The position numbers and the translations under genes are program-made. From positions 372,001-436,000 of the forward strand of contig CANMXP010000001.1 of assembly GCA_947501845.1 (NCBI GenBank): 64,000 nt of DNA. Direction: 5' to 3'. Under the pieces are notes generated by a model. It saw only the letters and a list, made by a program, of their open reading frames with translations. It did not search any database and was not told the DNA's origin. Source of the DNA: an uncultured Flavobacteriaceae bacterium (GTDB lineage Bacteria; Bacteroidota; Bacteroidia; Flavobacteriales; Flavobacteriaceae). The stretch's first letter is position 1; every line of letters starts with the position of its first letter. Positions 31,501 through 47,338 of this stretch are shown one piece after another.

Positions 31501-31740
31501 TCTGTCAATACTGCAGCCATTGAAAGTGTTATGTTTATAGCCAAGGTAAACGGTAATCCAGCAAGTTTTACAGTTAATGTAGATGCGGTTGCCACGAACC
31601 TATCAAGAGTTGACGATTTGGAAATGTGCACTGGAATAAATTCAGACATTGATCTGGATACCCAGTTTGCACTATCCGTCTCCGATGCCGATAAGGCTAA
31701 TATTGAAGAGCTTATGATGATCGTGAAATATAATTTTTAA
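22549..31740 (+). CDS. Tc toxin TcA-like pore and receptor-binding component
   Basis: A 3063-residue TcA-type protein, expected to form the pentameric injection channel for the TcB-TcC cocoon. Residues about 8-105 form a carboxypeptidase-regulatory-like beta domain (RGIVTDIKGKPLANLKVAIY) ahead of the usual start. The VRP1-type block is near 567 (CEHCRSVYSPAAYMVEILQF). The neuraminidase-like/ABC toxin region starts near 1570 (WNQWQWMKNYRVWEANRKVF). The TcB-binding and pore region includes KMNAYWDRVADRLFKIRHC near 2365. Long amphipathic helices at about 2460-2530 (VLETKQIHIEETEEQIEVLK) correspond to the pore-forming helices. It begins 33 bp after the TcB-TcC stop and is followed by a strong terminator. 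By eye GC is higher than in neighbours: one counted line had 28 of 60, against 16 of 60 in the metallopeptidase gene at 33.4 kb. Confidence 0.94.
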   Translation: MITKNQITNTVRGIVTDIKGKPLANLKVAIYDVDMRKWELLSEVQTDRTGKYELKWTHDQLSGRGKKTGDIAIKVLTPKKNIELYKSSIDEVRFNASRSEEINIVLKEQVKPDQVEFEWLVQEINFLADKVAITDLTENEENRDVTFLAKELNVAPEKIEHVIVAHRLSKISKIEPGFFYGLLQKDTLLNNKLATHFSARLSIGVATEEQPVLYDAALTESKKIQADIRSANKDMLVSGKVVKNLKQSLETLYKYKDEAEAYYQNKHPKKIIELLSSVFKKDKLQEVEKLFVENKNDLNGFFDKVQGTFKSKEKEKQGKTHLLLNKLMGMGNDIVPRITKERKIKTPKDVRRLAKLNKADWVNELSKGNSKKATKKSISTYASTLVRKFEKEYPTMAFTAQLEREKDSVIKEQDKIIQFLNKHEEFEFTKDNIDLFVKRKKIAVKEGARNELKSIQRIFKLTPNYSKTLALRKEKIHSAQNIVALGKVKFTDEIAPKAGLTASEANEIYVRAETRHTAAMLMIGDLYDNMSVMDIASFETKSLSKKLEAVSTDFPNLKSLFKVVDTCECEHCRSVYSPAAYMVEILQFLDKRTVVAGNAKSVLFDRRPDIGEIDLNCSNANTPVKYIDLVCELLEEAIAPDPGIDFTGNLSSGADPLVGEISNALLGTLQAEGLPVTSNAIIHETESELLPATSLPHYLRDEGLVCKIVNVGGNDYKVFRLRQTFGTAEELDAAPEYVNLNAYTELLNSSFAFTLPFDLNHTEAKAYLNRFDIARADLMKAFQTAMVPANEVIASERLGLSEAERLIISSPPAPNNNAAQQEYWNVPAPGNVVAHLRQVDHFLNRTGLSYRELGLLLKLEFIDPNNNLLISHDDLSCDTSKKEIANLDLDALDRIHRFLRLQKKTGWSFEVLDAIITQANLGNGTLDDASLIKAAQLKEISDKTGIKLEELIGCFGEIPHKIYGEDYDTPLYHQIFLNKAKNGVIDEVLLPENVDGSQQVTAHIESIATCLQLKQKDLEFVLPLLPNDDLTFSNLSHLLLATRLMKKLKHKAEDFAILVDLSDINIESSPENALNFIEVANTFSFSALDAADVKYVLEHDAANLDDRFISDEKIEEILTSLKDTYEAIHTDLASKYDDNLTAEEQSETLMNVLSALENVSEDDVKTILKFLDKDWVSAAAAKTFIDDTLNEGINRTQIDAAIDALDAIAAGMDISAEQKDLAKALLDAIVDYQILTAKRTALEEVLSSSFKAELDLINTVLSHAILKQTAPGTELIVNLLLDHFNNAISAANYPAQYDCLRLLHKSLYVINTLALSNDNVAWYFTNNMNMGWFELDGIPFDPAHTTIGFSTYLNFIRVISYSNEFRPVVDPSDAENPITFFGVLDMLLPASASTKDDLMKSLALLTSYEKDDLDAIDAHLFAAFDKANYRDMETWKRVLECAEYIRTLSASIAQITNYIQPTLSAIDVLNLRTTLKSRYDESTWLNTLKEIMDAVRGPKRDALVAYLLATNPEIKDENDLYEYLLIDVEMEACMPSSRIVLAHNSIQLFVQRCLMGLEPDAIADVDNDPNWNQWQWMKNYRVWEANRKVFLYPENWYDVTLSDNKSYLLTEFIDELQQNELTNDTAEEALKKYLEKLDGIAFLEVMASWYDTKTKHMHVFARTKGGDPAQYYYRRFEKERYWTPWEKVDLDISGDILLAFMRNDRLTLAWPITSEEADPNPQSTIPESTANAVVDNDKPKRKLKIQLAISEYSNNTWKPKKLSKDYILTPNSYTFEDIYFDMTKYNMIYLQPTDQIMIFSSNWDSVDYHTLNGIFNITGCKGYPELVFQGSIGFPDFLPDFKDAELLSQRYNEIIDILPDELAVRNGVSMFFFYNLLNKTPGKFRITYPHQFTTIDLLSLLFQYFIFLLWGKNTSVKDRNRLKIPLGTMLPYFDEDSEHAYVVIPGFYKKVQNGIGTASTHTLVDEEKRTASDVFQLLEDIMNWVKKIIHEFNTNPPADAQAAVDMIITDADFQDILKEISKYEALDFIFNFLIGNTGNDEFDAMLTSLRDSEGLVYGEQFKNLYHPLVCALRTILNKDGVPALMKRETQIQQSAFNFENYYLPNKQIVSEIMMKNAGGTVTPSFPIEDVDFTSDGSYSAYNWDLFYRLPLHIAGSLTQNQRFEEALTWFHYIFNPTGALPGNGVQKYWVTKPFYFNQDADYLAQRIDNLMYAVSDATNPNINELEFAIDEWREKPFRPDAIARFRPVAYQKAVLMKYIDNLVEWGDYLFRQDTMESVAQATQMYILADKLLGPKPRIVPALVKPPYETYNQIEAKLDGFGNALIELENILPDLLSLSEGDHDLPAPPVTLSMLYFCIPNNEKMNAYWDRVADRLFKIRHCQNIDGVERTLALFAPPIDPGMLVKAFASGLDISSIMAGLNAPTPYYRFTIISRKAQELAVEVRGLGLALLQALEKKDGEAMTLLRNELEIKVLNSVLETKQIHIEETEEQIEVLKRAKATAEERNSYYASIEKIISKEQLHLDKLSESHGYQMASQIIQASAAVMALIPDFAIGASGFGGSPHAAGKWGGSFLAHSANAASSVLGVLSTAASYEANRASILGGYDRRYSDWKLQERLAEKEIEQIEQQIVVAEIRKQIAEADYKNHELQIENSEKARAFMQDKFTNKELYDWMVGQISSVYFKSYQLAHDYAKKAERCYRFELGNDDSFISFGYWDSMKKGLRSADNLIHDIKRMQTDYLDKNKREYEITKHVSLAQLDPLALIRLRTTGICDFEIPEALYDMDHSGHYFRRLKTVSVSIPCVAGPHTSISAKMSLVNNRYRKNTNPDNAAATGYIEDPNNDERFIYNVGAIQSIATSDAQNDSGVFELDFRDERYLPFENTGAISGWRLELPTEVRQFDYNSISDVVVHVKYTAREGGSGLKTLANNALKGLLAAIEQDLGQNGLHVALNMVHDLPNEWLLLKTNGTVNLTIDKNRLPYMVQSVNTAAIESVMFIAKVNGNPASFTVNVDAVATNLSRVDDLEMCTGINSDIDLDTQFALSVSDADKANIEELMMIVKYNF

Positions 31741-31800
31741 ATATTAAAAAGAATGCTAGTTTCTTAAAAATAGCCTCGATATTTAGTATATTAGTTTTTG

Positions 31801-31836
31801 AAAAATCATGAGTTTTAACGAACTCATGATTTTTTG
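31801..31836 (+). terminator. Intrinsic terminator of the Tc toxin operon
   Basis: 14-bp arms (31801-31814 AAAAATCATGAGTT and 31821-31834 AACTCATGATTTTT) with a 6-nt loop, ending in a T run. It lies 60 bp after the tcA stop. Confidence 0.85.
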
Positions 31837-31849
31837 TTTGAGTGGGTGT

Positions 31850-32012
31850 AAAACTTCTAAAACATCGCACTTAAATTCGGTTAATTCATCTAAAAACAGC
31901 ACATATTTTTTGAGGTTTAAAACAAATGTTAAAGTTTAAAAAATTATCCTAAATATAAATAATACACCTCCTCCAACCAAAGCGACATTTGTGATATTAT
32001 CTAATGTATAGG
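31850..32012 (-). pseudogene. comM: Remnant of the middle of a comM gene
   Basis: The stretch matches the intact comM at about 44195-44325, in the same orientation. Shared pieces include ACTTCTAA, CTTAAATTCGG, TAATTCATCTAAAAA, AGCAC, CCTCCTCCAAC and AGCGACAT in the same order. This part of comM encodes the region around GVLFLDELPEFKRGVLEVL. The copy has insertions and no open frame. It lies between the Tc toxin terminator and the first cargo gene of the comM-linked array, so it is the outermost comM-derived scar. Confidence 0.75.
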
Positions 32013-32078
32013 TCTCGCAACAACAGATTAGTCAGCTATTTAAAATACAAGCTTATTATTACAAAGTAAACCACTCCT

Positions 32079-32820
32079 CTAATTCTTTAATAATTCACTC
32101 AACTCTTTGTCCGTTAAATCATTTAAAAAGACTTTAGTATCTGCTATTCCTTGTTCAAGTTCAACCTTAGAAAACCTATAACCAATAAATGATTTTTTAC
32201 TTATCTTAAGACTTGTTTCTCCTATGTATTCATTTTTAAGATTGGAGCTTAGGTTAATGTCATTTAATAACGCAGCGTCAAGACTAATAACACTATTGTT
32301 TGAATCATAAAATGTATATTCAATGCTTCCAGCTTGTAAGACCCTTGAAATTACCACATTGTTATCATCTTTAATTGCATTTAAACATGCTCCTGATAAA
32401 ATCCTTTATTTTATTTTTAATTGATACCTCAGATATAGCAAATTCTTTTGCATCTTCAATTTTTATATTGACTTTTTTTACTCTATTATTTTCAAATGCC
32501 GACTCTAACTTAATATTTTCATCTAATATCTTAGCTAAATTAAGCTCTAACTTATTATCCCTCTTTACTTCATAAGAATAATTAGGTATAGATGCATCAG
32601 TAACTCGTGCAGATTGATTAATACATTCATCATTAAAAGCTACTATTAACTCACCATTATTTTTAGTTATTATTGTTCCTGCCCCCCAATCACTTCTAAT
32701 TACTTCAAAAGGAATATAATTTAATTCATAAATAAATTTCTGAAGAGGACTTTTACAGCCAATAAATACCATCGTTATCGTGATTAATAAAATTGATGTG
32801 ACTTTTTGTTTAATGTTCAT
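32079..32820 (-). pseudogene. Lipoprotein gene split by a frameshift
   Basis: Two open frames, 32371-32820 (149 codons) and 32079-32357 (92 codons from a GTG), are parts of one gene. The first starts with a lipoprotein signal (TMVFIGC, Cys22) and stops after KDFIRSMFKCN. In the next frame the coding sequence runs on without a stop from LSGACLNAIKDDNN into VVISRVLQAGSIEY. The junction lies in GATTTTATCAGG at about 32395-32408. Joined, the protein is about 240 residues. The family is not recognised. The short intergenic distance to the metallopeptidase gene (11 bp) indicates a common transcript. It is either a real inactivation or a sequence error. Confidence 0.7.
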
Positions 32821-32831
32821 AATAATTAGTT

Positions 32832-34757
32832 TTAGTTTTTATTCATTTGTTCATAAAAATTCTTATAATTTGCTAATATTTCAATTGAGTCAAACTTTGA
32901 TGTAATATATCCCTTAAGCTCTTTTACTCTATCACTTATTTTTGGATGACAATCATTTCCTGAATATTCAATTGATTCAAAAAAATAATTATCAAATATC
33001 TCATATATGGATTTACCTAAAAAAGAACTAATTTCATATTTAAACGCTGAATCAGAAACCCCAGATGCACTGCTTGTTAAATATTGAAAAATATCATCAA
33101 AGAATAATTTTAAATATACATCTAATGCAAATCTGTCAGCTAAGTATTCAGCTTCCATACAACCATCATAATTACTTAATGTTGGTTGGATATAAGAGTG
33201 AAACAGTTCATGACTTAACGTAAATATTAAATACTTTTGTAATTCCATACTAAGCCTTATATGTGCTTGTAAGGTATATAAATAAATAGTTAACGATGAT
33301 TCAAAACAATTGACTTCATTACTAAAAAAATTGTCAGGAAAATAGTTCTCTTTTAGTTGTTTCAGTAATTCCTTAATTTTTTTACTTTTTACTTTCTCCA
33401 AGTCAATGAAATCTTCAAGCCCAAAAAATAATTGGTCTTCAAATCCTATAAAATAGCCATGTTTACCTTTTATTTTTATAAACTTATTTACTTCAGCAGT
33501 ATTCATGTCAATGAACTCTTTGTTTAATAATTTTTCTTTTTGAATTGTTAATAATTTTTTATCGCCCTCATCTAAGCCATCTACCCATATATCTTTCTGT
33601 ATTAATTTCTTAATATCCTTATATTCAATAAAATAAAATTTAGGGAATTCTGTATTATAAAGAATATTAAGAAAATCAGTAAATGTGAACCTTATATCAA
33701 GTAATTCATACAATGAGTTTTCTTCAAAAAAATCATAAATAGGAGTAGTTTCATACATTATGGCTATCTCCTCTTGTTCTCTAAAAAACTCCGAAAGTGA
33801 CCTCTTGATAAACCTCCTTAAAACTTCAATTGGAATTTTTTGAACATTACCCTTTGGCTGAAAAATTCCAATTTCATCTGCTTCTATTAATTTTACATTT
33901 ATTCGGTGAGTATCTATACCGAAAGAATCCTTGGCATATTTATCAACACTTTCATATACATTCTCAATTTGTTTCTCAATTTTCCTTTGTATGGATTTTT
34001 TAAGTTTTTTATCAATCAAAACATGTGAATACTTTCCGAAATCATAATTTGTAGAATCTATATCCAAATTGCTCAAAGCATATGATGAGTTGTGTTCGTA
34101 ATCTTTTATTTCTTTCCTTCTAATTATTTTTAACCTATCCTTATTGATAATAAATAAATCATCAACTAAATTAGAATAAGTTATTGTATTTAGAGATTCA
34201 TTTAAAAAATCACGCATTGAAACGTTGAAATTTTTATTGAAAAAGTTATAACATTGTTCTTTTGAATAAACAAAACTTTTGTCATTATTACTGAAATAAA
34301 TACTATCAAGTTGTTTTTCAGTATAAACAGGAAATGCTACTTCCCACTTTTCTAAGTAAAAATTATAATTATCTTTAATGTCATTTAAATCAATAGTAAT
34401 ATCTTGAGCAATGTACTCGTAATCATCTTCGCCTGCAACCCTCATAGAAATGTTTAAATAGTTAGAACTTTCTTTTATTTCAAATTGAAAATGCCCTAAA
34501 CTATCAGTTTTTGTATTGAAAGAGATTGGATAAGTATTTCTGCCCTTTCTAGAGGTGGAATCTATTATTGATTCAGTTCTATATCCATTAAACATAACGA
34601 GATAATCTTTAACTGGAACAATAGAGTCTTTATAAACAAATCCCTGTATCTCGAGAATGTCATAACTGTTTTTTTGTGAATAGCAAGAAAAATAGAATAA
34701 TGTAAATATTATAAATAACCGCATTGTGACTAAATAATTTATGAGGCTATTAAGCAA
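32832..34757 (-). CDS. Exported zinc metallopeptidase-like protein (HExxH plus ExxAD), cargo of the comM array
   Basis: A 641-residue protein whose better start is Met12 (MRLFIIFTLFYFSC, 34724), giving a signal or lipoprotein leader. Residues about 30-135 resemble a small carboxypeptidase-regulatory-like beta domain. The long middle part is helical and unrecognised. The peptidase signature is near the C-terminus: HELFH at 516-520 (long numbering), followed by EYLAD at 537-541. This is the HExxH...ExxAD arrangement of gluzincin-type enzymes such as M48-like peptidases. GNDCHPKISDRVKELKGY follows near 605. Very low GC and Lys/Asn/Ile-rich composition set it apart from the Tc genes. It shares a transcript with the frameshifted lipoprotein downstream. 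The substrate is unknown. Confidence 0.8.
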   Translation of the reverse strand: MLNSLINYLVTMRLFIIFTLFYFSCYSQKNSYDILEIQGFVYKDSIVPVKDYLVMFNGYRTESIIDSTSRKGRNTYPISFNTKTDSLGHFQFEIKESSNYLNISMRVAGEDDYEYIAQDITIDLNDIKDNYNFYLEKWEVAFPVYTEKQLDSIYFSNNDKSFVYSKEQCYNFFNKNFNVSMRDFLNESLNTITYSNLVDDLFIINKDRLKIIRRKEIKDYEHNSSYALSNLDIDSTNYDFGKYSHVLIDKKLKKSIQRKIEKQIENVYESVDKYAKDSFGIDTHRINVKLIEADEIGIFQPKGNVQKIPIEVLRRFIKRSLSEFFREQEEIAIMYETTPIYDFFEENSLYELLDIRFTFTDFLNILYNTEFPKFYFIEYKDIKKLIQKDIWVDGLDEGDKKLLTIQKEKLLNKEFIDMNTAEVNKFIKIKGKHGYFIGFEDQLFFGLEDFIDLEKVKSKKIKELLKQLKENYFPDNFFSNEVNCFESSLTIYLYTLQAHIRLSMELQKYLIFTLSHELFHSYIQPTLSNYDGCMEAEYLADRFALDVYLKLFFDDIFQYLTSSASGVSDSAFKYEISSFLGKSIYEIFDNYFFESIEYSGNDCHPKISDRVKELKGYITSKFDSIEILANYKNFYEQMNKN

Positions 34758-34925
34758 ACAGGGAAGTATAAACTTACAAAAATAAAAGCAATAATTTATA
34801 TTAATTCAAAAAAACACTTACAATTTAGACAATCATTAATTTTAATAAACAAAATATTTTGGCAAACTGCTTTTTATAATCACTTTTTGAATGATATCAA
34901 TTTTGTTAATAGAAATTTTATAACT

Positions 34926-35160
34926 TCATAAAAACAAAAGATATATTATTACTAAAATGCAAATTGTAAGAACAATCCAAAAGACGTTCAGTGATTTATT
35001 TTGCTTAGAGATTTGGTTTATTAAAAGCAGCTTTTCCTTTTCAACTATTTTTTGATAGTTTTCCATTTCTAAATCTTTTGATTTAATAAAACTCACTTTA
35101 TTTTTATAGTTGTTTGCGATTTCTTGTAAAAACACCCCAATTGAAGTAGGCGTAGCCCCC
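34926..35160 (-). pseudogene. 3' fragment of an unknown gene, truncated at the comM repeat
   Basis: An open frame reads from the edge of the comM repeat (about 35160) to a stop at 34926: ATPTSIGVFLQEIANNYKNK, then a charged coiled-coil-like part and a C-terminal membrane helix (FWIVLTICILVIIYLLFL). It opens in mid-protein, with no good ATG (first GTG at 35135). I read it as the tail of a gene whose 5' part was lost where comM-derived sequence begins. The identity is unknown. Confidence 0.5.
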
Positions 35161-35161
35161 C

Positions 35162-35391
35162 GATCGTCCTAGTATATCCACTCAAGAGTGAGTGCTAACG
35201 CTAGTTTCCAAAACTAGTGGCATTTATGAGTAAGCCATATCATCTCAAAAAGTTAACTTATTTTACATGAATCTTAAAATAGCCCCAAGATTCCTTCCTC
35301 CGCAGGAATTGTTCACCCCAACCAACCTTCTCTATCCAAACTTCGATACTGAATAGCCTCACTAATATGCGTACCATTAACATCTTTAGCG
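35162..35391 (-). repeat. comM: Displaced comM 3' end, copy R1
   Basis: About 230 bp matching the end of comM and its downstream flank. The minus strand encodes [23 protein letters not shown]-stop, identical in protein to the C-terminus of intact ComM but with synonymous differences. The flank includes the palindromic CTAGTTTCCAAAACTAG, shared with copy R2 (37083-37347) and, less exactly, with the native site (43484-43719). R1 and R2 resemble each other more than either resembles the native end. At its comM-internal side (35392) homology stops abruptly at the start of a metallophosphoesterase-like gene. Confidence 0.85.
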
Positions 35392-35452
35392 CAATCCAAC
35401 TTTGATTACGTGCGAATTCTAAATGTAAATCTGAGCAAAATTGAATTTTCAC
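35392..35452 (-). pseudogene. First ~20 codons of a metallophosphoesterase gene fused to comM repeat R1
   Basis: Starting from a GTG at 35450-35452 the minus strand reads MKIQFCSDLHLEFARNQSWI. This is the typical N-terminus of a calcineurin-like phosphoesterase, with the metal-binding Asp-x-His of SDLH. At about 35392 the sequence switches into the comM 3' end in a different frame, so the 64-codon open frame to 35258 is a chimera and not a gene. The junction marks a recombination point. Confidence 0.65.
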
Positions 35453-35572
35453 TAGTACAATTTATTATCAAAAATAAAAACAGTTTGATATAAAAAGAAA
35501 AAACTATACAAAATACACATTTTGTATAGAGTTAAGTAAATGGATTTATTATATTGTGTAGCTGATTGTTTT

Positions 35573-36973
35573 TTATTCAAAACAAAATTCAATAGCAGGT
35601 ATACCAATGCGTTCAGCGGCCTCTAATGTCCAACCTCTATTCACAGTAATACCATCAAAACCTGTAAGTCTTCCTCCTGGTGATATATCATAAGCCGTAC
35701 CCCCAGTCCAAAGACGAACCGTTATTCTATTTTTATTTATAATTCCTTTTATAGTTCGTCCATCACTTATATAGTCACTAAGGTCCATATTCCAATTGTA
35801 TAATCCATTAAGTCTAGAGTTATATGTAAACCCTGCTCCAATTATATTTCGATTTGGAGTTGTCCAACAAGGTGGCGGTGGCGTTGGTCTTGGTGAAACA
35901 GTTATTAAAACATTTGCAGTAGAAGTCTGACCTGCAGTCGATGAACGCAAAAAATACTCAAATGATCCTGTAGGGGTTACTCTTAAACTTCCAGAGGTCG
36001 TTCTAAACTGGTGGTTTTCACCACGAGGACCACTTATTTCAGTTAGACAGGGGGCATTACAATCTACCATAAAATCAATTACTGAACTTTCTCCTTCATA
36101 AATTCTACTAGGTATAGCTCGAAACCTTTCAATGACTGGAGCTCCTGGTCTAGAATATCGAACATTGATAGTCTCTGAAATCGTAGCAACAGAATTTGAT
36201 GCAACTAATTTGAATACACCACCTTCACTAATACGAAAACTTACATTATCATTCATATTATTACTTGTTAATGGAGTTCCATCAAAAGGAGAATATACAC
36301 TTATTATATCTGTATAAAGTGTTTCAAATTCTATCCTTGCAATATCCAGAGCAGTAGATCTCTCTATACTACTTTCTATTTTGACAATCTTTGGTTCCTT
36401 TTTTGGGTTTACAGTAACTATAGGAGAAATTGTAATATTTCCTGCAAAGTCTACTGTTTCGGCTTGAATAAACATAGAATTTTGTTCATTATCAAAAAAA
36501 CAACTACCTAAAGAAATTAATTTATCTTTTGTTTTACCATCTTCTTCAATATTAGTTACTGTGAACTCTGTAACCAGTCTTTCTACCCCTCCAGATTCTA
36601 ATACTTTTATTTTACCGCCTCTTATTACTTTAACAGTAAGCCTATTGGGGCCACTTTCGGAATCAATTGCTCCTGCTGTGAAATAAAAATCTCTTTCACT
36701 TGAAGCATCAAAAGTCTTATCTATATTTTCAATGGAACTTACCATCGCGGATCTAAAACCGCTAATATTTTGGTGAACTACTAAGTTTAACTCTGTCTTA
36801 ATAGTATTTGAAGTTCCAGTAATAACACTTTTACAACTTATTAATAAAACTACTAAGATCAACATACCACGAGAAAGAATTGCTTTTAAGCACATAATAT
36901 TTTTTTTATAAAAGTACTTACTTAATGAAATTCCGTCAAGAAGAAAAACCCTATTTTTAAAAAGAGAAAACAC
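35573..36973 (-). CDS. Large lipoprotein with Ig-like repeats, unknown function
   Basis: The frame has 466 codons. The best start is Met27 (36895), which gives MCLKAILSRGMLILVVLLISC with lipobox LISC. The mature part consists of several beta-rich segments with Ig- or cadherin-like spacing (AETVDFAGNITISPIVTVNP; SNSVATISETINVRYSRPGAP), a Pro-rich linker (SPRPTPPPPCW, about residue 385) and a C-terminal domain of about 80 residues with GTAYDISPGGRLTGFDGITV. I do not recognise the family. It sits alone between comM repeats R1 and R2, on the comM strand, and looks like a surface-exposed cargo protein. Confidence 0.7.
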   Translation of the reverse strand: MFSLFKNRVFLLDGISLSKYFYKKNIMCLKAILSRGMLILVVLLISCKSVITGTSNTIKTELNLVVHQNISGFRSAMVSSIENIDKTFDASSERDFYFTAGAIDSESGPNRLTVKVIRGGKIKVLESGGVERLVTEFTVTNIEEDGKTKDKLISLGSCFFDNEQNSMFIQAETVDFAGNITISPIVTVNPKKEPKIVKIESSIERSTALDIARIEFETLYTDIISVYSPFDGTPLTSNNMNDNVSFRISEGGVFKLVASNSVATISETINVRYSRPGAPVIERFRAIPSRIYEGESSVIDFMVDCNAPCLTEISGPRGENHQFRTTSGSLRVTPTGSFEYFLRSSTAGQTSTANVLITVSPRPTPPPPCWTTPNRNIIGAGFTYNSRLNGLYNWNMDLSDYISDGRTIKGIINKNRITVRLWTGGTAYDISPGGRLTGFDGITVNRGWTLEAAERIGIPAIEFCFE

Positions 36974-36990
36974 CCTTTTTTTAAAAAGGG
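36973..36990. other. Hairpin of unknown role
   Basis: CCCTTTTT-TT-AAAAAGGG forms an 8-bp stem just upstream of the 466-codon gene. It is rich in T/A and could be a terminator stem or a regulatory hairpin. Confidence 0.4.
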
Positions 36991-37082
36991 AAACTCTTTT
37001 TTAAAAAGATTTTTTGAATAAGTAGAAGAAATAATTGCAATTTATTTTGTAGTGTTATCAATTACTCTTGTAATTTATCCTC

Positions 37083-37347
37083 TGATCGTCCTAGTATATC
37101 CGAGCAAGAGTGAGTGTTACCGCTAGTTTCCAAAACTAGTGGTATTCATGAGCAAGCCATATCATCTCAAAAAGTTAACGTATTTTACATGAATCTTAAA
37201 ATAGCCCCAAGATTCCTGCCTCAGCAGGAATTGTTCAGCCCAACCACCCTTCACGATCCAAACTTCGATACTGAATAGCCTCACTAATATGCGTACCATT
37301 AACGTCTGAAGGACCTTCCAAATCAGCAATGGTTCTAGAAACTTTAG
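37083..37347 (-). repeat. comM: Displaced comM 3' end, copy R2
   Basis: About 265 bp homologous to R1 and to the end of comM. The minus strand reads [36 protein letters not shown]-stop in frame. Against native comM most changes are synonymous. The notable protein difference is PSD for VED. The homology stops exactly inside the LKVSRT codons on the comM side. Downstream of the stop it carries GCTAGTTTCCAAAACTAGTGG, a near-perfect 11-bp-arm palindrome (ACCGCTAGTTT / AAACTAGTGGT) found in all copies. Confidence 0.88.
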
Positions 37348-37407
37348 TTACACAAATACATATAGTGTTCAGAACTATTTTTTTCTATCAAACCTTAGCT
37401 AATATTC

Positions 37408-40400
37408 TTACCTTACTAAACTGAAATGCCCCTTCAACACCTTACCACCTCTATAGTTTATTAGATACCAATAGTCATCAGCTGGCATTAGACTACCATT
37501 GAAAGTACCATCCCATCCTGTAGAAATATTACCTATTTGTTTTAACAGCTTTCCGTAGCGGTTATAAATAATGATACTTATTACTTGATTTGAGAGGTTT
37601 GGAACTATCCAATAATCATTTATACTATCATTATTCGGCGTGAAGAACTTTGGTGGTAAATCGCTATTAGAGAAAACCGTTTCTGTAGTAAAGCGTTCCT
37701 GGGTACAACCTATTGCTTCTCCAACTGAATTGTACGGGGTAATGCTAACGTAAATACGCTTACCTTCTGGCAAATCTGCTGTTAAATCATGACTCAATAC
37801 ATGACCAACATCTAATGCATTCAGTATGTCGGCACTTCCTGGATTGGTTCCTATAGTTAGCCTATATCCTGTTGCATTCGAAACAGAGTTCCACGTTAAA
37901 TCCGTTCCTACCAAAACATTTGTGTCTCCTGCCAACGGAGAGAACAAGGAGGTACATAATGGCCTGGACATTAAAAGTTCTGTGGTAAAGTCTTCCTCTA
38001 CACAACCTATTGCTTCTCCAACTGAATTGTACGGGGTAATGCTAACGTAAATACGCTTACCTTCTGGCAAATCTGCTGTTAAATCATGACTCAATACATG
38101 ACCAACATCTAATACATTCAGTATGTCGGCACTTCCTGGATTGGTTCCTATAGTTAGCCTATATCCTGTTGCATTCGAAACAGAGTTCCACGTTAAATCC
38201 GTTCCTACCAAAACATTTGTGTCTCCTGCCAACGGAGAGAACAAGGTGGTACATAATGGCCTGGACATTAAAAGTTCTGTGGTAAAGTCTTCCTCTACAC
38301 AACCTATTGCTTCTCCAACTGAATTGTACGGGATAATGCTAACGTAAATACGCTTATCTTCTGGCAAATCTGTTGTTAAATCATGACTCAATACATGACC
38401 AACATCTAATGCACTCAGTATGTCGGCACTTCCTAGATTGGTTCCTATAGTTAGTTTATATCCTGTTGCATTCGAAATAGAGTTCCACGTTAAATCCGTT
38501 CCTACCAAAACATTTGTGTCTCCTGCCAATGGGGAGGACAAGGTGGTACATAACGGAACAGAAGTTATTGTTAATTCAAAATCTTGTTCAGAACTACAAC
38601 CCGAACTAAAACTATCATAAATATATATGGTGATAGGATAAGAGGAGAAATCGCCAAAACTAATAACATCTCCAGCATTATAAACCGTTCCTGTACCATT
38701 AACACCTGTATAGTATCGTTGATTGCCTGTGAGATTTACTCCAGTAATTGTTGGCAATACATAATTAGTTGGTGCGGTTTGATCTGCTATATCATTAATT
38801 ACAGGTGCTACCGTACCTGCATCAGTAATCATCCAATTATCGCTAGTAATCATATTAGACCTAGCAGCTTCACCTAAACAATATTTACTTAACCCACCAC
38901 TAAATGGTACATTAGACTGTAAAACTATACTATTCCAACCGATTAGCAATGAATCATAATTACTTACTGATAGCTCCACACCATCAAACATTAAATTCAT
39001 ATCGGAAACATTAATTACATTCCAATTACCTAAATCCTGATCGAAGGTAACAGCATTAGCAAACATAGAATTCATATAGTTAACATTACTAACATTCCAG
39101 TCCCCTATATCCTGATTAAACAATGCAGCTTCAGAAAACATTTGTTCCATTATGGTTACATTGCCCACATCCCAACTTCCAATATCTTGGTTAAATGATA
39201 TAGCTTCAGAAAACGTAAACCCCATAGTTGTCACGTTACTAGTAATCCAACTACCAATGTTTTGATTGAATGCACTGGCTCGATAAAACATAAAGTTCAT
39301 ATTCTCTGCACTGCTTGTATTCCAGTTACCAATATCTTGGTTAAAAGCAAATGCTTCGCCAAACATAGCTTCCATAAGCCTTACATTAGCTACATCCCAG
39401 CGACCAATATCTTGATTAAATACCGTGGCTTGATAAAACATAAACGCCATATCGTTAACATTGCTCACATTCCAATTCCCAATATCTTGATTAAATGAAC
39501 TAGCTGTAGCAAACATAGCTGTCATTCGAAGTACATTGCTAACATCCCAATTGCCTATATTCTGATTAAAGACTATTGCATCTCGAAACATAAACGTCAT
39601 ACCGGTTACATTGCTCACATCCCAACTACTAATATCTTGATTGAATGATGTTGCACCTGCAAACATCGAAGACATCCTATTCACAGTACTAACATCCCAA
39701 TTACTTATATCATGATTAAAGGACGATGCCGAATCGAACATAAAAGCAAAATCTGTAACATTGGACAAATCTGGACTATCGGTAAAATTTCCCTGTAAAT
39801 TTATACAGCCATGATATGCAGCAAACATAGTACCCCATTCTATACTACCCCATTGCTCTATGGTCAATATTTTTTCTTTATCTCCAGAATCATTAAAAAC
39901 AATCGCAGGAAAAGTACCAGTAATACTTACCGTATAAACTCCTGGAGTTGCATAAGTATGAGTCGCATCTCCTGTTTCTAATGTTGGTGATGTACCATCT
40001 CCCCAATCGACAGTGTAGTTATATCCAGTTCCAAATGTTGGAATGGTTATTTGATTGTTGGCAGATACTCCGGGGTTATCTGTTTTCCATGTTGTTACGA
40101 AAGGAAGATTAACTTTGTTTATAGTTAGTTGAAAATCTTGTTCTGAACTACAACTGGCATTCGTTCCGCCATAAATATAAAGCATAATCGGATAGCTAGG
40201 GAAATCGGAAAAGTTAATAACATCTCCTGGGTTAAAAGCAGTACCAGTTCCACTAGCTCCTGTATAATAGGCTTCGTTCCCTACTAGGTCTATTCCAGTA
40301 ATAGCAGGTAACGTAAAACTTCCTGAAGCATTTTGATTTATTAAATCGTTTATTGATGGTGCCGCTATTCCAGCGTCTATAATACTCCAGTTATCGCTAT

Positions 40401-43161
40401 TAAGCATATTTGCTCTAGCAACTGCACCTGCACAGTATTTACTATTGCCTCCATGAAAAGAAACGTTTGGGTTTAAATTTTGAGCATCCCAGCCTATGAG
40501 CAAGGCATCATAATTAACAGTAGACAATTTTACACCTACAAACATATTATTAGCACTTGTAAGGTTGCCTACAGCCCAAGCCCCTATATTTTGATCGAAA
40601 TTAATGGCATTTTGAAACATGCTCCGCATATCAATTACTTTGCTTACATCCCAACTACTTATATCCTGATTAAATGCAGTTCCAAAAAACATATAACTCA
40701 TGTCTACAACATTACCAACATTCCAACCTCCTATATCCTGATTAAACAACGTAGCTCCCCTAAACATATCTTTCATAGTTACAACGTTACTTACATTCCA
40801 ACTTCCTATGTTTTGATTAAATGAGGTTGCGCCACTAAACGTTGAAAACATGTTGGTAATACTACTAACATTCCAATTACCTATATTTTGATTGAACGAT
40901 GTTGCTCTCATAAACATTGTTCCCATATTAACAACATTGCCAACATCCCAACTGCTAATATCCTGATTAAATGAATTTGTATCGGCAAACATAGCTGACA
41001 TACTTGTAACATTACTTACATTCCAATTGCCTATATTTTGATTAAATGATATGGCATTATTAAACATCGTAGACATATTTGTAACGTTACTTACATCCCA
41101 ATTACTTATATCGTGATTAAACAAAACCGCTCCACTAAACATTCCAGCCATACTAGTAACATTCGACAAATCTGGGCTATCTGTAAAATTCCCTTGTAGA
41201 TTGCTACAACCATTAAAAGCCCCTCCCATAGACACCCATTGGTTATCTCCCCATTGCTCTATAGTCAATATTTTATCCTTATCTCCAGAATTATTAAAAA
41301 TAATTCTCGGGAAAGTTCCCGTTATACTAACTGTATAAGTTCCTGGGGCAGCATAGGTATGAGTAATATTACCTGTTATATTTGTTGACATTGTTGTGCC
41401 ATCACCCCAATCTACTGTATAATTATAACCTCCACCTGTTGTAGGAATGGTAATTTGATCATTGTTTGAAGTCCCCGGATTATCAGTTTTCCATGTTGTA
41501 ATAAATGGCCTTACACCACTATTTATTACTAATTGAAAATCTTCTTCAGCACTACAACCGGAAGCCCCTACATCGTAAATGTAAAGTGTAACTGGATATG
41601 ATGCAAAATCGGAAAAGTTAATGACATCGCCAGCGTTATAAATCGTTCCTGTTCCGTTAGTTCCTGTATAATATTTTTCATTTCCTGAAAGATCTACACC
41701 AGTGATTAACGGTACGGTAAAACTTCCAGACACATTCTGATTTGACAAATCATTAATAGTTGGTCTAGGAGCTGGTCCCCCATCAACAATACTCCAATTA
41801 TCGCTAGCAATTATATTGTCCCGAGCAGATTCTCCCATGCAGTATTCACTATTTCCTCCATGAAAATTTGTATTAAGCCTTAAGTTTAACATGTCCCAAC
41901 CAATAAGTAGAGCATCGTAATTATTCAATGATAATGTAACATCTCTAAACATATTTGACATGTAAATAACGTTTTGTACATCCCAGTTTTCAAGATTTTG
42001 ATCAAAAGCCGTTGCTCCATAAAACATGGACGACATATTTGTAACATTACTTACGTTCCAATTCCCTATATCTTGATTAAACGCAGCTGCTCTGTAAAAC
42101 ATATTTTGCATTCTTGTTACGTTACCCACATTCCAGTTCCCAATATCTCGATTAAAAACAGCGCCCATAAACATGTCACTCATTTCTGTAACATTACTAA
42201 CGTTCCAACCTCCTATATCTTGATTAAATGCTGTTGTCCCTCCAAACATATTGCCCATATTGGTAACACTACTTACATTCCAACCGCTTATATCCTGATT
42301 AAAATTAGTGTTTAAAAACATTCCGTACATGTTAGTGGTTCTACTTACATCCCACACTCCTATATTTTGATTAAACGCTACTGCATTTCTAAATAATTCT
42401 AGCATGTTAACCACATTGCTTACATTCCACAGCCCTATATTTTGGTTAAAATTAATAGCATCAAAAAACATATTTCTCATATTGATAACGTTGCCTACGT
42501 TCCAATTACCAATATTTTGGTTGAATACGGTGGCTGCACGAAACATATCAGACATTTCGGTGACATTACCAACATTCCAAGAACCAATATCTTGATTAAA
42601 GGCAGAAGCACTAAAAAATAATCCCTTCATATCATTAACATTACTAACATTCCAAGAACTAACATCATAATTAAACGTTGATGCATTTCTAAACATATAA
42701 GACATATCTGTAACATTTGACAAATCTGGACTATCAGAGTAATTTCCCTGTAAATTACTACATCCAAAAAATGCACCATTCATGCTCGCCCACTGATTAT
42801 CCCCCCATTGCTCTATAGTCAATATTTTATTTTTATCTCCAGTATTATTAAAAACAATCGCAGGAAAAGTTCCCGTAATGCTAACCGTATAAGTTCCTGA
42901 GGCAGCATAGGTATGAGTAATATTACCTGTTATATTTGTTGACATTGCTGTGCCATCACCCCAATCTACTGTATAATTATAACCTCCGCCTGTTGTAGGA
43001 ATGGTAATTTGGTCATTGTTTGAAGTCCCTGGGTTATCAGTTTTCCATGTTGTAATGAAAGGGGTAATTCCAAAAAGTATTGAACTATGTGATTTTGTAA
43101 TTAAAAAAAATAGAACGAAAAGAAGAGAGATACAGTGCTTAATTGAAAGGCGCTTGGTCAT
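37408..43161 (-). CDS. Giant BspA-like (DUF285) repeat surface protein with T9SS type B sorting domain
   Basis: A 1917-residue secreted protein with an N-terminal signal ([16 protein letters not shown]). It has three large modules starting near residues 36, 548 and 1020. Each has a PKD-like domain ([11 protein letters not shown]...[15 protein letters not shown]), then 10-14 DUF285 repeats of about 25 residues ([20 protein letters not shown]), then an Ig-like spacer ([10 protein letters not shown]). Three nearly identical ~99-residue FN3-like repeats follow (about 1530-1825). The last ~85 residues form a CHU_C-type gliding-associated sorting domain ([18 protein letters not shown]). It is likely exported by T9SS to the cell surface, where such proteins serve adhesion or motility. 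It lies between comM repeat R2 and comM itself, on the comM strand. Confidence 0.93.
37690..38562 (-). repeat. Three tandem 297-bp repeats inside the DUF285 protein gene
   Basis: The FN3-like units recur with an exact 297-bp period. Long stretches are identical between copies: for example GGCACTTCCTGGATTGGTTC occurs at the same phase in the first two, with single changes in the third. Such near identity means recent duplication or gene conversion, and it makes the region prone to length change and to assembly collapse. Confidence 0.9.
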
Positions 43162-43483
43162 TTGATAATTGTCTTAGTAGCTGTGTTAAAACCCATTAAG
43201 AGTCAGTTACTCTTAATAAACAAATAAAAGTACCTATTTATAATATACAGCCTCTTTTCTTTTCGTTAAACAGTCATTTTTTTAGAAATACGGTTTTAAC
43301 TTAATAAATTACTTGTTAATTGATTTATTGGTTGCAAGAATTATAAAACCAATATTTTTTTCATATTTCTATTTATCTCTTAGATAATAAAGCTTTCATA
43401 GGGACGAGTATCTCCCTAATTAATAGTTAAATTTCTATAAAAGGTAAGTTCAGTATATACATAAAAATGAATCCCCGCTGTTC

Positions 43484-43719
43484 CCCAGTATGAGCTACCG
43501 CTAATTTCCAAAACTAGTGGTATTCATGATGTCTCGCCCTAAAAAAAGTTAACGTATTTTACATGAATCCTAAAATAGCCCCAAGATTCCTGCCTCCGCA
43601 GGAATTGTTCACCCCAACCAACCTTCTCTATCCAAACTCCTGTATTGAATCGCCTCACTAATGTGAGTTCCATTAACATCTTCAACACCTTCCAAATCAG
43701 CAATGGTTCTAGAAACTTT
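43484..43719 (-). repeat. Native comM 3' end and flank, the parent of R1 and R2
   Basis: The last ~110 bp of comM plus about 125 bp of downstream flank, homologous to R1 and R2. The flank includes the palindrome ACCGCTAATTTCCAAAACTAGTGGT, followed by GTTAACGTATTTTACATGAATC and AAAATAGCCCCAAGATTCC. The conserved hairpin has no T tract on the comM strand, so it is not an obvious terminator. Confidence 0.85.
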
Positions 43720-45144
43720 TAAAATACGATCGTAGGCACGGGCAGACAGATTAAGCCGTTCCATTGCTGTTTTTAATAATTTTTTGGAAGCCTCGTCCAA
43801 CAAACAATATTTCCGTATCTGCTTGGTATTCATCTGTGCATTGTAGTGTACCAAATCAGACTCTTTAAAACGGTTGGTCTGAATCTCTCTAGCTTTCGTT
43901 ACACGCTTTCTAATATCTACAGAGGTTTCTCCTTTTCTATCATCAGACAATTTTTCAAAAGGTACGGGTGTGACTTCAATATGGATATCAATCCTATCTA
44001 ATAAAGGCCCTGAAATTTTGCTTAAATACCGTTGCATTTCTGCTGGGCTAGACGTTACGGGTGCATCAGGATCGTTAAAATAGCCTCCTGGACTTGGGTT
44101 CATACTCGCAACTAACATAAACGACGATGGATAAGTTACCGTAAATTTAGCTCTGGAAATGGTGACTTCCCTATCTTCCAATGGTTGGCGCAACACTTCT
44201 AACACACCACGCTTAAATTCGGGTAATTCATCTAAAAATAGCACGCCATTATGAGACAAAGAAATTTCTCCTGGTTGTGGAAATGCGCCTCCTCCAACTA
44301 GAGCGACATCACTTATGGTATGATGGGGACTTCTAAACGGACGCTGCGCCATAAGCCCTGAATCTTTAATGCGTCCAACCACCGAATGTATCTTGGTTGT
44401 TTCCAAAGCTTCATAAAGTGTCATAGGTGGCAAGATACTAGGCAAACGTTTTGCCAGCATGGTTTTTCCTGCACCTGGGGGACCTATTAAAATAATATTA
44501 TGACCGCCTGCTGCTGCTATTTCCATACAGCGTTTTATGCCTTCTTGTCCTTTGACATCGGAAAAATCAAACTCAGGAAATTCTAAATTTTTATAAAACT
44601 CTTCACGAGTATTTATAATGGTTTGCTCAAGTGGTTCACCTTTATCAAAAAAATTAATAACCTGCTTAATGGTATCAACCCCATAAACTTCCAACCCATC
44701 TACAATGGCTGCCTCTTTGGCATTTTGTTTTGGTAGAATAAATCCCTTATAACCTTCTTCTCTTGCCTTGACTGCAATAGGCAAAGCTCCTTTTATGGGT
44801 TGTAAACTTCCATCTAGGGAAAGTTCTCCCATAATAAGATAACGTTCTAAATCTTCTGCTTGTATTTGTTTAGAAGCTGTAAGAATCCCAATAGCCAATG
44901 TAAGGTCGTAAGCACTTCCCTCCTTCCGTAAATCGGCAGGCGCCATATTAATAGTAATCTTCTTTCCTGGAATTTTATAACCGTTATTTTGAAGTGCGGC
45001 TGCAATACGATAATTACTTTCTTTTATGGCATTGTCTGGAAGCCCTACTAAATGATACCCAATTCCTGAATCTACATTGACTTCTACTGTAATAGTTGTG
45101 GCTTCTACACCAAACACGGCACTTCCAAAAACTTTTTTAAGCAT
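43609..45144 (-). CDS. comM: ComM/YifB-family AAA+ ATPase (magnesium chelatase-like)
   Basis: A full-length 511-residue ComM. Residues about 20-165 form the Lon-protease-like (ChlI) domain (GIGYHLVGLPDNAIKESNYR). Residues about 190-395 form the AAA+ Mg-chelatase domain with Walker A GPPGAGKT at 221-228 and Walker B VLFLDELPEF. The C-terminal domain ends [18 protein letters not shown]. ComM is known as a hexameric branch-migration helicase that supports integration of DNA taken up by natural transformation. In Acinetobacter, comM is a well-known insertion target of resistance islands. Here the gene is intact, but extra copies of its 3' end and middle lie downstream among cargo genes. Confidence 0.95.
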   Translation of the reverse strand: MLKKVFGSAVFGVEATTITVEVNVDSGIGYHLVGLPDNAIKESNYRIAAALQNNGYKIPGKKITINMAPADLRKEGSAYDLTLAIGILTASKQIQAEDLERYLIMGELSLDGSLQPIKGALPIAVKAREEGYKGFILPKQNAKEAAIVDGLEVYGVDTIKQVINFFDKGEPLEQTIINTREEFYKNLEFPEFDFSDVKGQEGIKRCMEIAAAGGHNIILIGPPGAGKTMLAKRLPSILPPMTLYEALETTKIHSVVGRIKDSGLMAQRPFRSPHHTISDVALVGGGAFPQPGEISLSHNGVLFLDELPEFKRGVLEVLRQPLEDREVTISRAKFTVTYPSSFMLVASMNPSPGGYFNDPDAPVTSSPAEMQRYLSKISGPLLDRIDIHIEVTPVPFEKLSDDRKGETSVDIRKRVTKAREIQTNRFKESDLVHYNAQMNTKQIRKYCLLDEASKKLLKTAMERLNLSARAYDRILKVSRTIADLEGVEDVNGTHISEAIQYRSLDREGWLG

Positions 45145-45263
45145 ATTATTTTTTTATCGCTTAAATGTAAGAAAAATTACCGTATTTAATATCTAATTGT
45201 ACAGGTCTAATATTTATAATTCTAAGGGTTATTCAATTAAAATTGAAGAATAAAAAAGAAAAA

Positions 45264-45390
45264 GGTTGTCTAAAAAGTACTTAGATGTCCGTTAGAGAGC
45301 AATCGAGAACTTTTAAATGTCTTGATTTTGAAGACATCTCGACTGCGTTCGATGAGACAATTTTTAGCTTCTAATACTTTTTAGACAACC
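45264..45390 (-). terminator. Long nested inverted repeat, probable terminator of the GH16 operon
   Basis: Outer arms GGTTGTCTAAAAAGTA (45264-45279) and TACTTTTTAGACAACC (45375-45390) are perfect over 16 bp. Inside is a second imperfect pair containing AGCAATCGAGA and TCTCGACTGCGTTCG, of the same type as the repeat at 14654-14728. On the minus strand the outer arm is followed by TTTTTCTTTTTT, so it should terminate transcripts from the GH16 gene that ends at 45407. It could also be a miniature mobile element co-opted as a terminator. Confidence 0.75.
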
Positions 45391-45406
45391 CCAATAAATT
45401 ATTTAC

Positions 45407-47338
45407 TTACTCAACTGCGATCAACAATGTTTTTACTTCATCTGAAGAAAAGCTTTGAACATTAAGCATGTAAAGTCCTGTTGCTTGAAATATATCTGAT
45501 TTTAAGTTCAATTTCTGAGGACTGGCATCTTTCTTATATAAAAGCCTGCCATGAATATCAAAAATACTAATTAGAACATCGCTATCATACCCACTTAAAT
45601 CTACCATAAAACTGCTTCCAGCAATTGGATTAGGATAAACTTTCAATACAGAATTACCTAACGTAGAAACATCTGATTGTTGTTTTTTAAACCCTTTACT
45701 TGTAGATGCTGAATTATAAGTAATGACCAATTGCGGTTCGGTTGCACTATTTTCTTTAGAAGCAAAAGCAACATCATCTGCACTGCCCGATGCCGTAATA
45801 ATTAAACTAACATCACCTCCACCATTCAACAAATTAGTATTTAAGTCCCATGTATAAGTATCTCCAGGGTTAAATGGCCCTTGTTTAACGTCTAAAACCC
45901 CTATGGATGATGGCGCGTTAGCATTGGACACATTGGTCTCCGTCCAGTTATTACTATCCCCTAATGCTGCTGTAATAGCCAAAGCCGAGTTACCCGCATC
46001 AGAATTACATGTCATTTTTAACTGAGCTGATGAAATTGCACCATAGATGCCACTCAGGTCATACTTAAGATATCCTATTCGCTTCCTACCTGTGTTCTCT
46101 ACACGAACTAGGTTATTATTTTTATTTACACCATTTTGAGTGTATGCGTCATGAATAGGAGAAAGTGTTACTGTTTGAATTGAACCAGCATTTACTGTAA
46201 CGTTGCTTGTTGCTGTAAAACCACCATCATTTGTAGTCGCTATAATTTTTGTACTACCCGCCGCAACCGCTGTTACAACGCCATTAGTATCCACAATAGC
46301 TACAGAAGTATTATTTGAACTCCAAGTAACCGATTTATTTGTTGCATTAAAAGGCAATATTACAGCAGATAACTGTTCGGTTTCGTTAGTGTTTAGTGAA
46401 ACCATTGTTGGTGAAACTGAAACATCCATCACCGCAATTGCACTTCCATCATCTGGGACTAGTGTCCAAACTCTTACCCAATCGTAATATGACGTATTTC
46501 TACTAGGATCTGTTAATGATGCATTTGTAGGTCTTTGTTCCCAATCGTACGTTTCTGTTACCATACATATAAACATGCCTCTATTAAACGGTGTAGGGGT
46601 TTTGTCCGTTCTAAATTGGACCGTCTCTCCTTGTCTATCATCGAGATAGAAAGTGACTTCTTTAGCATCTCGCCACCAAGCACCATAAGTATGAAAACCT
46701 TCATCACTTTGTTGGTTTACCTCTTGGCCAGAACTATTTATAGCCGTTATAGGCCCCGTAGTAGTTCCCTTGGAAAAGAATTGCTCATTACTGCCTCCGC
46801 TACAATTTTTCCATCTAAAATGAGTATTCGATTTCTGATGTGTAGCAAAAATAGGCAAGTTTGTTGCATCTCCAACGGTTTCTACAATATCCAATTCTTG
46901 ACTGTAAGTATCACCATTACAACCGCCGGGCAAAGGAGCTTTTCTATTTTCCAACCAAAAGGTAGTCGACATTCTAGAAGAAGAAGCTTTTAACCGACAT
47001 TCGTAATAAGCAAACTTGGTATTTTCATTTACTGACGTTACAGCTCCTCCATAGATATTGTAACCATTAAAAGGCTCGCTTAGAATACCATTTGTAATCT
47101 TCATATATCCGTCACTCACAGAAATAGCATCTGGATTGAACCAAGCAGGCTTTCTTCCATTCCAAAATGGGTGTTCTTTTCTCCATTTATTAAGATTTAG
47201 GTTATTGCCATTAAATTCGTCTGAGTACAATGCTGTTAATTGCCACCTATAACCAGCAGGTGCTGGCGGAGGATCTGCAAATGCCACTGTGCCAATCAAG
47301 AACACATATATAAGTATAATTAATTTTTTAGTCTTCAT
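45407..47338 (-). CDS. Secreted GH16 glycoside hydrolase with Big_2, CBM96-like and T9SS sorting domains
   Basis: The frame is open from 47383, but the natural start is Met16 (47338, MKTKKLIILIYVF), which gives a signal peptide ending at VAFAD. The GH16 core (about 40-300) contains the catalytic ELDIVE (Glu148, Asp150 and Glu153 from this start) after LPGGCNGDTYSQ. Then come a bacterial Ig-like Big_2 domain (VSVSPTMVSLNTNETEQLSA), a CBM96/DNRLRE-type beta-sandwich (IGYLKYDLSGIYGAISSAQL) and a type A T9SS sorting domain (LKVYPNPIAGSSFMV). It is probably an agarase/porphyranase- or carrageenase-like enzyme acting on red-algal galactan; the substrate is not provable here. It is the second gene of an operon, 46 bp after the nucleoside-hydrolase-like gene. 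Confidence 0.92.
   Translation of the reverse strand: MKTKKLIILIYVFLIGTVAFADPPPAPAGYRWQLTALYSDEFNGNNLNLNKWRKEHPFWNGRKPAWFNPDAISVSDGYMKITNGILSEPFNGYNIYGGAVTSVNENTKFAYYECRLKASSSRMSTTFWLENRKAPLPGGCNGDTYSQELDIVETVGDATNLPIFATHQKSNTHFRWKNCSGGSNEQFFSKGTTTGPITAINSSGQEVNQQSDEGFHTYGAWWRDAKEVTFYLDDRQGETVQFRTDKTPTPFNRGMFICMVTETYDWEQRPTNASLTDPSRNTSYYDWVRVWTLVPDDGSAIAVMDVSVSPTMVSLNTNETEQLSAVILPFNATNKSVTWSSNNTSVAIVDTNGVVTAVAAGSTKIIATTNDGGFTATSNVTVNAGSIQTVTLSPIHDAYTQNGVNKNNNLVRVENTGRKRIGYLKYDLSGIYGAISSAQLKMTCNSDAGNSALAITAALGDSNNWTETNVSNANAPSSIGVLDVKQGPFNPGDTYTWDLNTNLLNGGGDVSLIITASGSADDVAFASKENSATEPQLVITYNSASTSKGFKKQQSDVSTLGNSVLKVYPNPIAGSSFMVDLSGYDSDVLISIFDIHGRLLYKKDASPQKLNLKSDIFQATGLYMLNVQSFSSDEVKTLLIAVE

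Follow-up and report, generated by a model that had tools for sequence, protein, structure and literature searches.

How does a gene come to be followed by several copies of its own end, with other genes lodged between them? comM poses this question in an uncultured marine Flavobacteriaceae bacterium whose closest named relative is Flavivirga rizhaonensis. The window, by which we mean the whole stretch of 64,000 nucleotides analysed, holds one intact comM and, downstream of it, three partial copies, R2, R1 and R0 in that order, each in the orientation of comM:

43609–45144, minus strand: intact comM, 511 amino acids (YifB family, Mg chelatase-like AAA ATPase)
37084–37345, minus strand: R2, displaced comM end, codons 476–511 plus 3′ UTR, by DNA match to comM
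35162–35399, minus strand: R1, displaced comM end comprising the codons from about 484 onwards and part of the 3′ UTR, by DNA match to comM
31842–31988, minus strand: R0, decayed comM codons ~278–322 in two pieces at the outer edge of the insert, by comM match and comparison with congener G011

DNA matches confirmed what a sequence-only reading had described, namely an intact comM accompanied by two displaced 3′ ends and an inner remnant, all in one orientation. R2 (37345–37118) follows comM from codon 476 to 113 nt past the stop (85.7% identity over 230 columns) and R1 (35399–35194) matches it at 84.6% over 208 columns; between themselves the two ends are 93% identical over 224 nt, an alignment that extends to 35162 in R1 and 37084 in R2. 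The two pieces of R0 are shorter (31902–31842, 84% over 61 nt, E = 1.6e-12; 31988–31961, 86% over 28 nt). R1 is preceded by the start of a gene that is cut at the junction (35258–35452) and that, from a motif, looks metallophosphoesterase-like.

Protein and DNA searches of the same genome found no comM sequence beyond comM, R0, R1 and R2, and none of 140 sequence records compared, several of them from one genome, held a comM piece on the opposite strand. Across the family, 363 of 397 genomes have a comM match. An intact comM accompanied by displaced ends occurs in at least 23 of the 397, a count that includes G260 (piece 446 kb from comM) and G195 (piece beginning at a contig end), and a split comM in at least 12 (at codon ~279 in ten and ~295 in two; three across contigs). 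Both counts are minima because, of 71 listed genomes with at least two comM matches, 44 were re-searched (along with three congeners) and five were known from the congener survey, while the remaining 22, mostly less complete, were left out. G332 and G268, whose loci are broken or cut, were excluded, and the extra match in G127 is a 52% paralogue. Extra partial copies are present in 5 of 11 congeners, and the arrangement differs between congeners instead of being conserved unchanged across the genus. Among 80 named loci searched by tblastn, ten carry partial copies downstream of comM; displaced C-terminal ends follow 8 of the 80 comM genes, whereas among the remaining ORFs of 300 or more amino acids in these loci (569 in total) one has such an end (Fisher p = 3e-7). 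This enrichment and the own-genome searches exclude chance as the source of the displaced ends. We regard the array as real, as occurring throughout the family and as peculiar to comM. Matches to comM in plasmid (60) and phage (32) records all fall short of 80% identity (best 64.8% and 65.0%, respectively); 57 IMG/VR loci matched, in a table that does not separate whole genes from halves. G155 and G300 show the usual pattern in mirror image, with fragments of the comM 5′ end preceding the intact gene.

Relatives show what the locus looked like before the array:

31850–43608: insert relative to congener G011, 11.8 kb, with G011 as the empty site
8533–9666, minus strand: DUF2891 gene, the ancestral downstream neighbour of comM, from comparison of relatives
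22549–31740, plus strand: putative TcA-like protein, in the older part of the gap and common to G011 (ORF and G011 comparison)

G011 is collinear with the window up to the comM stop (43611) and resumes at window position 31849, about 90 nt past its own comM stop, with 89% identity over 17 kb; 31850–43608 was thus inserted, and R0 marks its outer edge. In Flaviramulus, Algibacter, Hyunsoonleella, Mangrovimonas, Gelidibacter, Paucihalobacter, Winogradskyella and others, comM and the DUF2891 gene lie 22–141 bp apart. In the window they are 33.9 kb apart, so the variable region exceeds the bounds first drawn around it. The older part of this gap is common to the window and G011, with parts also in G002 and G003; the genes after DUF2891 are presumably mntH-like and pxp-like. 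Eight loci have comM pieces and DUF2891 both in view; in all of them the pieces are confined to the interval separating these two genes, and no partial copy of DUF2891 was observed. In G078, G024 and L089, a displaced end stands 65, 73 and 79 bp before DUF2891, respectively, which is the ancestral spacing and identifies it as the old resident end. The upstream side of comM is variable too: ~12.9 kb separate it from its upstream gene in G011 (L256, 5399–18334), compared with ~0.2 kb in the window (45175–45394).

Between the displaced ends lie the following genes:

37408–43161, minus strand: surface protein, 1917 amino acids, with 12 DUF285 repeats, three PKD domains and a CHU_C sorting domain (domain scan)
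35573–36973, minus strand: lipoprotein-like protein, 466 amino acids, matching no Pfam family (ORF)
32832–34757, minus strand: peptidase-like protein, 641 amino acids, matching no Pfam family, with an HELFH motif (ORF)
32371–32820 and 32079–32357, minus strand: broken lipoprotein-like gene in two ORFs of 149 and 92 amino acids (ORF list)

We judged signal peptides, lipoboxes and the HELFH motif by eye. Comparison of the regions downstream of comM in relatives bore out the proposal that variable cargo is flanked by comM ends. The further proposal that all cargo is exported and lies on the comM strand was partly upheld: every cargo ORF within 31850–43608 is on the comM strand, but relatives also carry opposite-strand genes and sulfatase/SusCD loci. 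In one such case, G228, the intact comM is separated from a displaced half of 98.4% identity by ~39 kb in which SusD, TonB-receptor, sulfatase, GH3 and hybrid-sensor genes lie and no recombinase was found. The peptidase-like protein is present in 2 of 397 genomes and the lipoprotein-like protein, likewise a near-orphan, in 1 of 397; no donor genome for either was found among the 397. Behind a displaced half in G336 (L146, 11–18379) stand many related short genes starting MIxFFRxIR, with three more comM ends scattered among them.

Are the displaced ends duplicates of the resident gene or alleles from elsewhere? Seven pairs of intact and displaced halves differ by 9–95 synonymous and 2–21 non-synonymous changes, a synonymous excess in all seven given a share of 22–23% expected without selection. 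In the window, R2 differs from comM by 12 synonymous and 1 non-synonymous changes and R1 by 8 and 0 (codons 489–511). Since the differences are mainly synonymous, the displaced ends look like imported alleles and not like decaying duplicates, as had been proposed from their intact C-terminal frame and mostly synonymous changes. We consider it quite unlikely that the comM 3′ end was duplicated locally and that other DNA was then inserted between the copies. Such duplication would account for displaced halves lying nearest to their own intact half in six of seven pairs and for near-identical pairs (one difference in 349 nt in G047; two in 119 in G428), which, like the L099 end that follows comM at 115 nt, may have arisen by local duplication and count against import. 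It fits poorly with the synonymous excess, with a displaced half in G004 that shares 86.7% identity with G006 but 84.2% with its own gene, and with high-identity pair alignments (G428, G222 and G024, for example) that stop at the comM stop codon.

The tree built with the short window ends has one well-supported branch. R1 and R2 branching with the resident comM had been put forward as the sign of local duplication; the free tree contains no such clade, but the short ends do not reject it either (p-AU 0.33 for R2 with resident comM, 0.49 for R1, R2 and resident). The tree is therefore compatible with duplication for R1 and R2 and to that extent speaks against import, and the allele argument rests on the synonymous excess rather than on the tree. 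The comM tails nearest to R2 are those of Algibacter L069 (87.0%), G003, L071 and G005, with its own comM at 84.3%. Over codons 489–511, R1 and R2 are 88.4 and 89.9% identical to the sister genome G011, compared with 82.6% for the intact comM, whose drop relative to G011 behind codon 476 is borderline (p = 0.051).

Some of the copies are mosaics. The first 33 nt of R2 equal the resident comM (33/33), a 33-mer absent from every other comM of the set, and the next 75 nt match at 58 positions (p = 0.001, for a comparison chosen after seeing the data). Identity between displaced and intact halves falls from 93–100% near the site to 78–85% near the stop in G409, and from 100 to 76% in G155; it is patchy along the displaced halves of L073 and G005. 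The R2 mosaic and the two gradients point to homologous recombination within comM in some events. Two observations argue the other way: G162 shows no gradient along its displaced half, and R2 retains resident codons 476–486 on both sides, an outcome that a linear donor simply replacing the resident sequence would not produce.

At roughly even confidence, we favour a reading in which homologous import from relatives rebuilds comM, in some cases after a serine recombinase has broken it; the import delivers cargo, and the former end stays where it was. On this view the locus is an array of scars, and the interval from comM to DUF2891 is a hotspot. Large serine recombinase elements would first enter comM at codon ~279 and split it, a step shown in relatives and weakly indicated in the window. 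DNA of a close relative, containing comM and strain-specific downstream genes, would then recombine homologously with the resident comM. The product would be a functional comM whose 3′ end is new, followed by the downstream genes of the donor; the end of the resident gene would escape removal and persist behind the new cargo. Repetition would produce the order comM, cargo, old end, cargo, older end, so that R0 would be the oldest scar in the window, followed by R1 and then R2. The likeliest route would be natural transformation because the genome encodes a ComEC family protein. The displacement of resident ends is well supported; relatives provide support for allele import, which is likely in the window too; we infer the serial order, the uptake route and the joining on the right-hand side. 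Of the serial integration at the comM 3′ end that had been suggested earlier, the insertion and the displacement of older ends hold, given the empty site in G011, and the nesting fits the order; the placing of all events at the 3′ end does not hold, since R0 begins at the codon ~279 cut point of the serine recombinases.

This cut point is defined by the split genes. A large serine recombinase was present in all 11 split-comM loci fetched (of 12), mostly as the first gene past the left junction. The recombinase profile was built from ten of these eleven loci, so the Pfam domain scan, which found resolvase, recombinase and zinc-ribbon domains in 10 of 10 split-locus recombinases scanned, is the independent check. 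Codon-279 junctions show, by eye, near-palindromic arms around a GA dinucleotide. In six loci with an intact comM (G409, G162, G410, G222, L117 and L130), a right-hand recombinase site precedes the displaced half (26–40 bits, compared with 31–49 in splits), and no recombinase was found in the stretches searched; comM in these loci was probably split once and made whole later. The displaced halves of G004, G005, G228 and L073 have a different flank, the start of a regulator-like gene sharing CATCAYACC with comM. In G005 (L041, 2097–10884), three related regulator-like genes carry the motif GTTACAAATGGGC at their start; one abuts the displaced comM half and another adjoins a 17-codon comM end. 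In G048 (L044, 872–16777), comM is broken from codon 127 to codon 283 by a stretch that contains a small serine recombinase and genes resembling, by eye, those of a Tn7/Tn5053-type transposon. The insertion that interrupts comM in G072 (L153, L154) looks by eye like a prophage and includes terminase- and portal-like genes.

The window itself bears a faint trace of such an element:

31982–32021, minus strand: attR-like flank beside R0, weak, corresponding to the codon ~279 site of serine recombinases (site scoring)

This flank is the top-scoring site in the window (17.0 bits; next 8.8), although its element side alone ranks only sixth; with comM intact, there is no attL. R0 is the comM remnant it was first thought to be, but its start at codon ~279 and its flank set it apart from R1 and R2. 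The report that no integrase is present was borne out: neither our home-made serine recombinase profile nor a home-made tyrosine recombinase profile, built from 20 PF00589 loci of the same genome, matched in window positions 1–50000. It is highly improbable, in our judgement, that serine recombinase elements bring along a substitute comM 3′ half and so repair the gene when they integrate. That would explain right-hand scars beside an intact comM, but all 11 fetched elements that still have their recombinase split the gene, and the G409 gradient from site to stop fits a crossover inside comM.

Site-specific cassettes are a tentative but real possibility. Units with their own comM end (codon ~476 to stop) could be inserted around codon 476 by a recombinase whose gene lies elsewhere; comM would be made whole and its former end pushed aside, much as happens when integrases act at the 3′ ends of tRNA and other genes; the whole genome has 22 PF00589 matches, and a tyrosine recombinase could be among genes outside the window. 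Of 33 displaced ends starting at codons other than 279, ten begin at codons 470–478 (Poisson p = 1.4e-5, on starts listed by hand and open to bias from alignment edges), a clustering that random joining under import does not predict. The cluster lacks a defined core, R1 and R2 begin at different codons, and many ends start elsewhere (codons 354–458 and 481–495). Shared junctions keep site-specific integration alive. As a DNA query, the 3′ end of the DUF285 gene matched 141 of 339 genomes, mostly over short stretches; its three best foreign matches (G340, G367 and G360), and likewise that in G371, lie behind comM on the comM strand. A comM end from the identical codon trails this gene by 62 bp in the window and 60 bp in G371, which belongs to another genus, and a second gene family, presumably DUF6090, shares a comM-end junction between L128 and G260. 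The DUF285 gene is, however, trailed in G340 by a shorter remnant of about nine codons (counted by eye) and in G360 and G367 by no evident comM end, and home-made profiles found no tyrosine or serine recombinase in the loci combining an intact comM with displaced ends.

An unlikely but coherent variant would make comM ends the docking sites of a recombinase-free cassette system with comM as its sole address. Cargo and a comM tail would be freed as circles by recombination between two comM ends and would then dock by homology onto the comM of another strain. The dock gene encodes a helicase that aids integration of foreign DNA, so each import would keep or restore what a further import needs.

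Integron cassettes and rAID arrays resemble the window in having cargo separated by similar short sequences; here no XerD- or IntI-type gene was found, and the separators are ends of a protein-coding gene. That comM is a target of mobile elements is already known (PMC10083194, PMC10293859, PMC11472951). According to one study, genes for magnesium chelatase/ATP-dependent protease are the target of 12.4% of predicted site-specific recombinases (PMC10083194); the split comM loci are of the large serine recombinase kind treated there, with the same target gene family, whereas the window has an intact comM and several displaced ends in series, and no recombinase was found in its positions 1–50000. 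AbaR, Tn7-like and Tsy elements inactivate comM, an insertion hotspot (PMC11472951, PMC10293859); one of these studies discusses its recovery by recombination and found no excess of recovery in Acinetobacter (PMC11472951). No Tns or Tsy genes were noted in the window, and the scars here are structural ones of a restored comM. Homology-facilitated illegitimate recombination (PMC3240628) would leave such scars through one homologous and one non-homologous junction, but comM ends cluster and the illegitimate right-hand junction is only putative here. Genomic island accretion and CIMEs at gene 3′ ends (PMC3146451; see also PMC7563491) likewise involve integrase-less serial modules bounded by gene-end copies, but the window modules apparently lack the bounding att pair of one integrase. 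The papers listed in literature searches include none on displaced comM ends in Flavobacteriaceae, and arrays in which displaced ends accompany a restored comM and no recombinase is found appear to be new.

If homologous import is the right reading, a comM often broken by mobile elements would be rebuilt in nature, and each repair, with its accompanying genes, would leave a readable record by which the DNA-uptake history of marine Flavobacteriaceae could be tested from single genomes. It would also provide an integrase-less entry route for surface proteins and, in G228, for a whole sulfatase/SusCD locus, as well as structural evidence on whether recombination recovers broken comM.

An Rfam scan of window positions 31700–45600 gave no match up to E 1. 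We considered the hairpin of the 3′ UTR that accompanies R1 and R2 as a dispersed repeat and rejected this, as a 26-nt motif has only four matches in the genome at up to three mismatches, three of them behind comM ends. In G009 (L049), the UTR hairpin region behind the comM stop is tandemly repeated with a 153-bp period.
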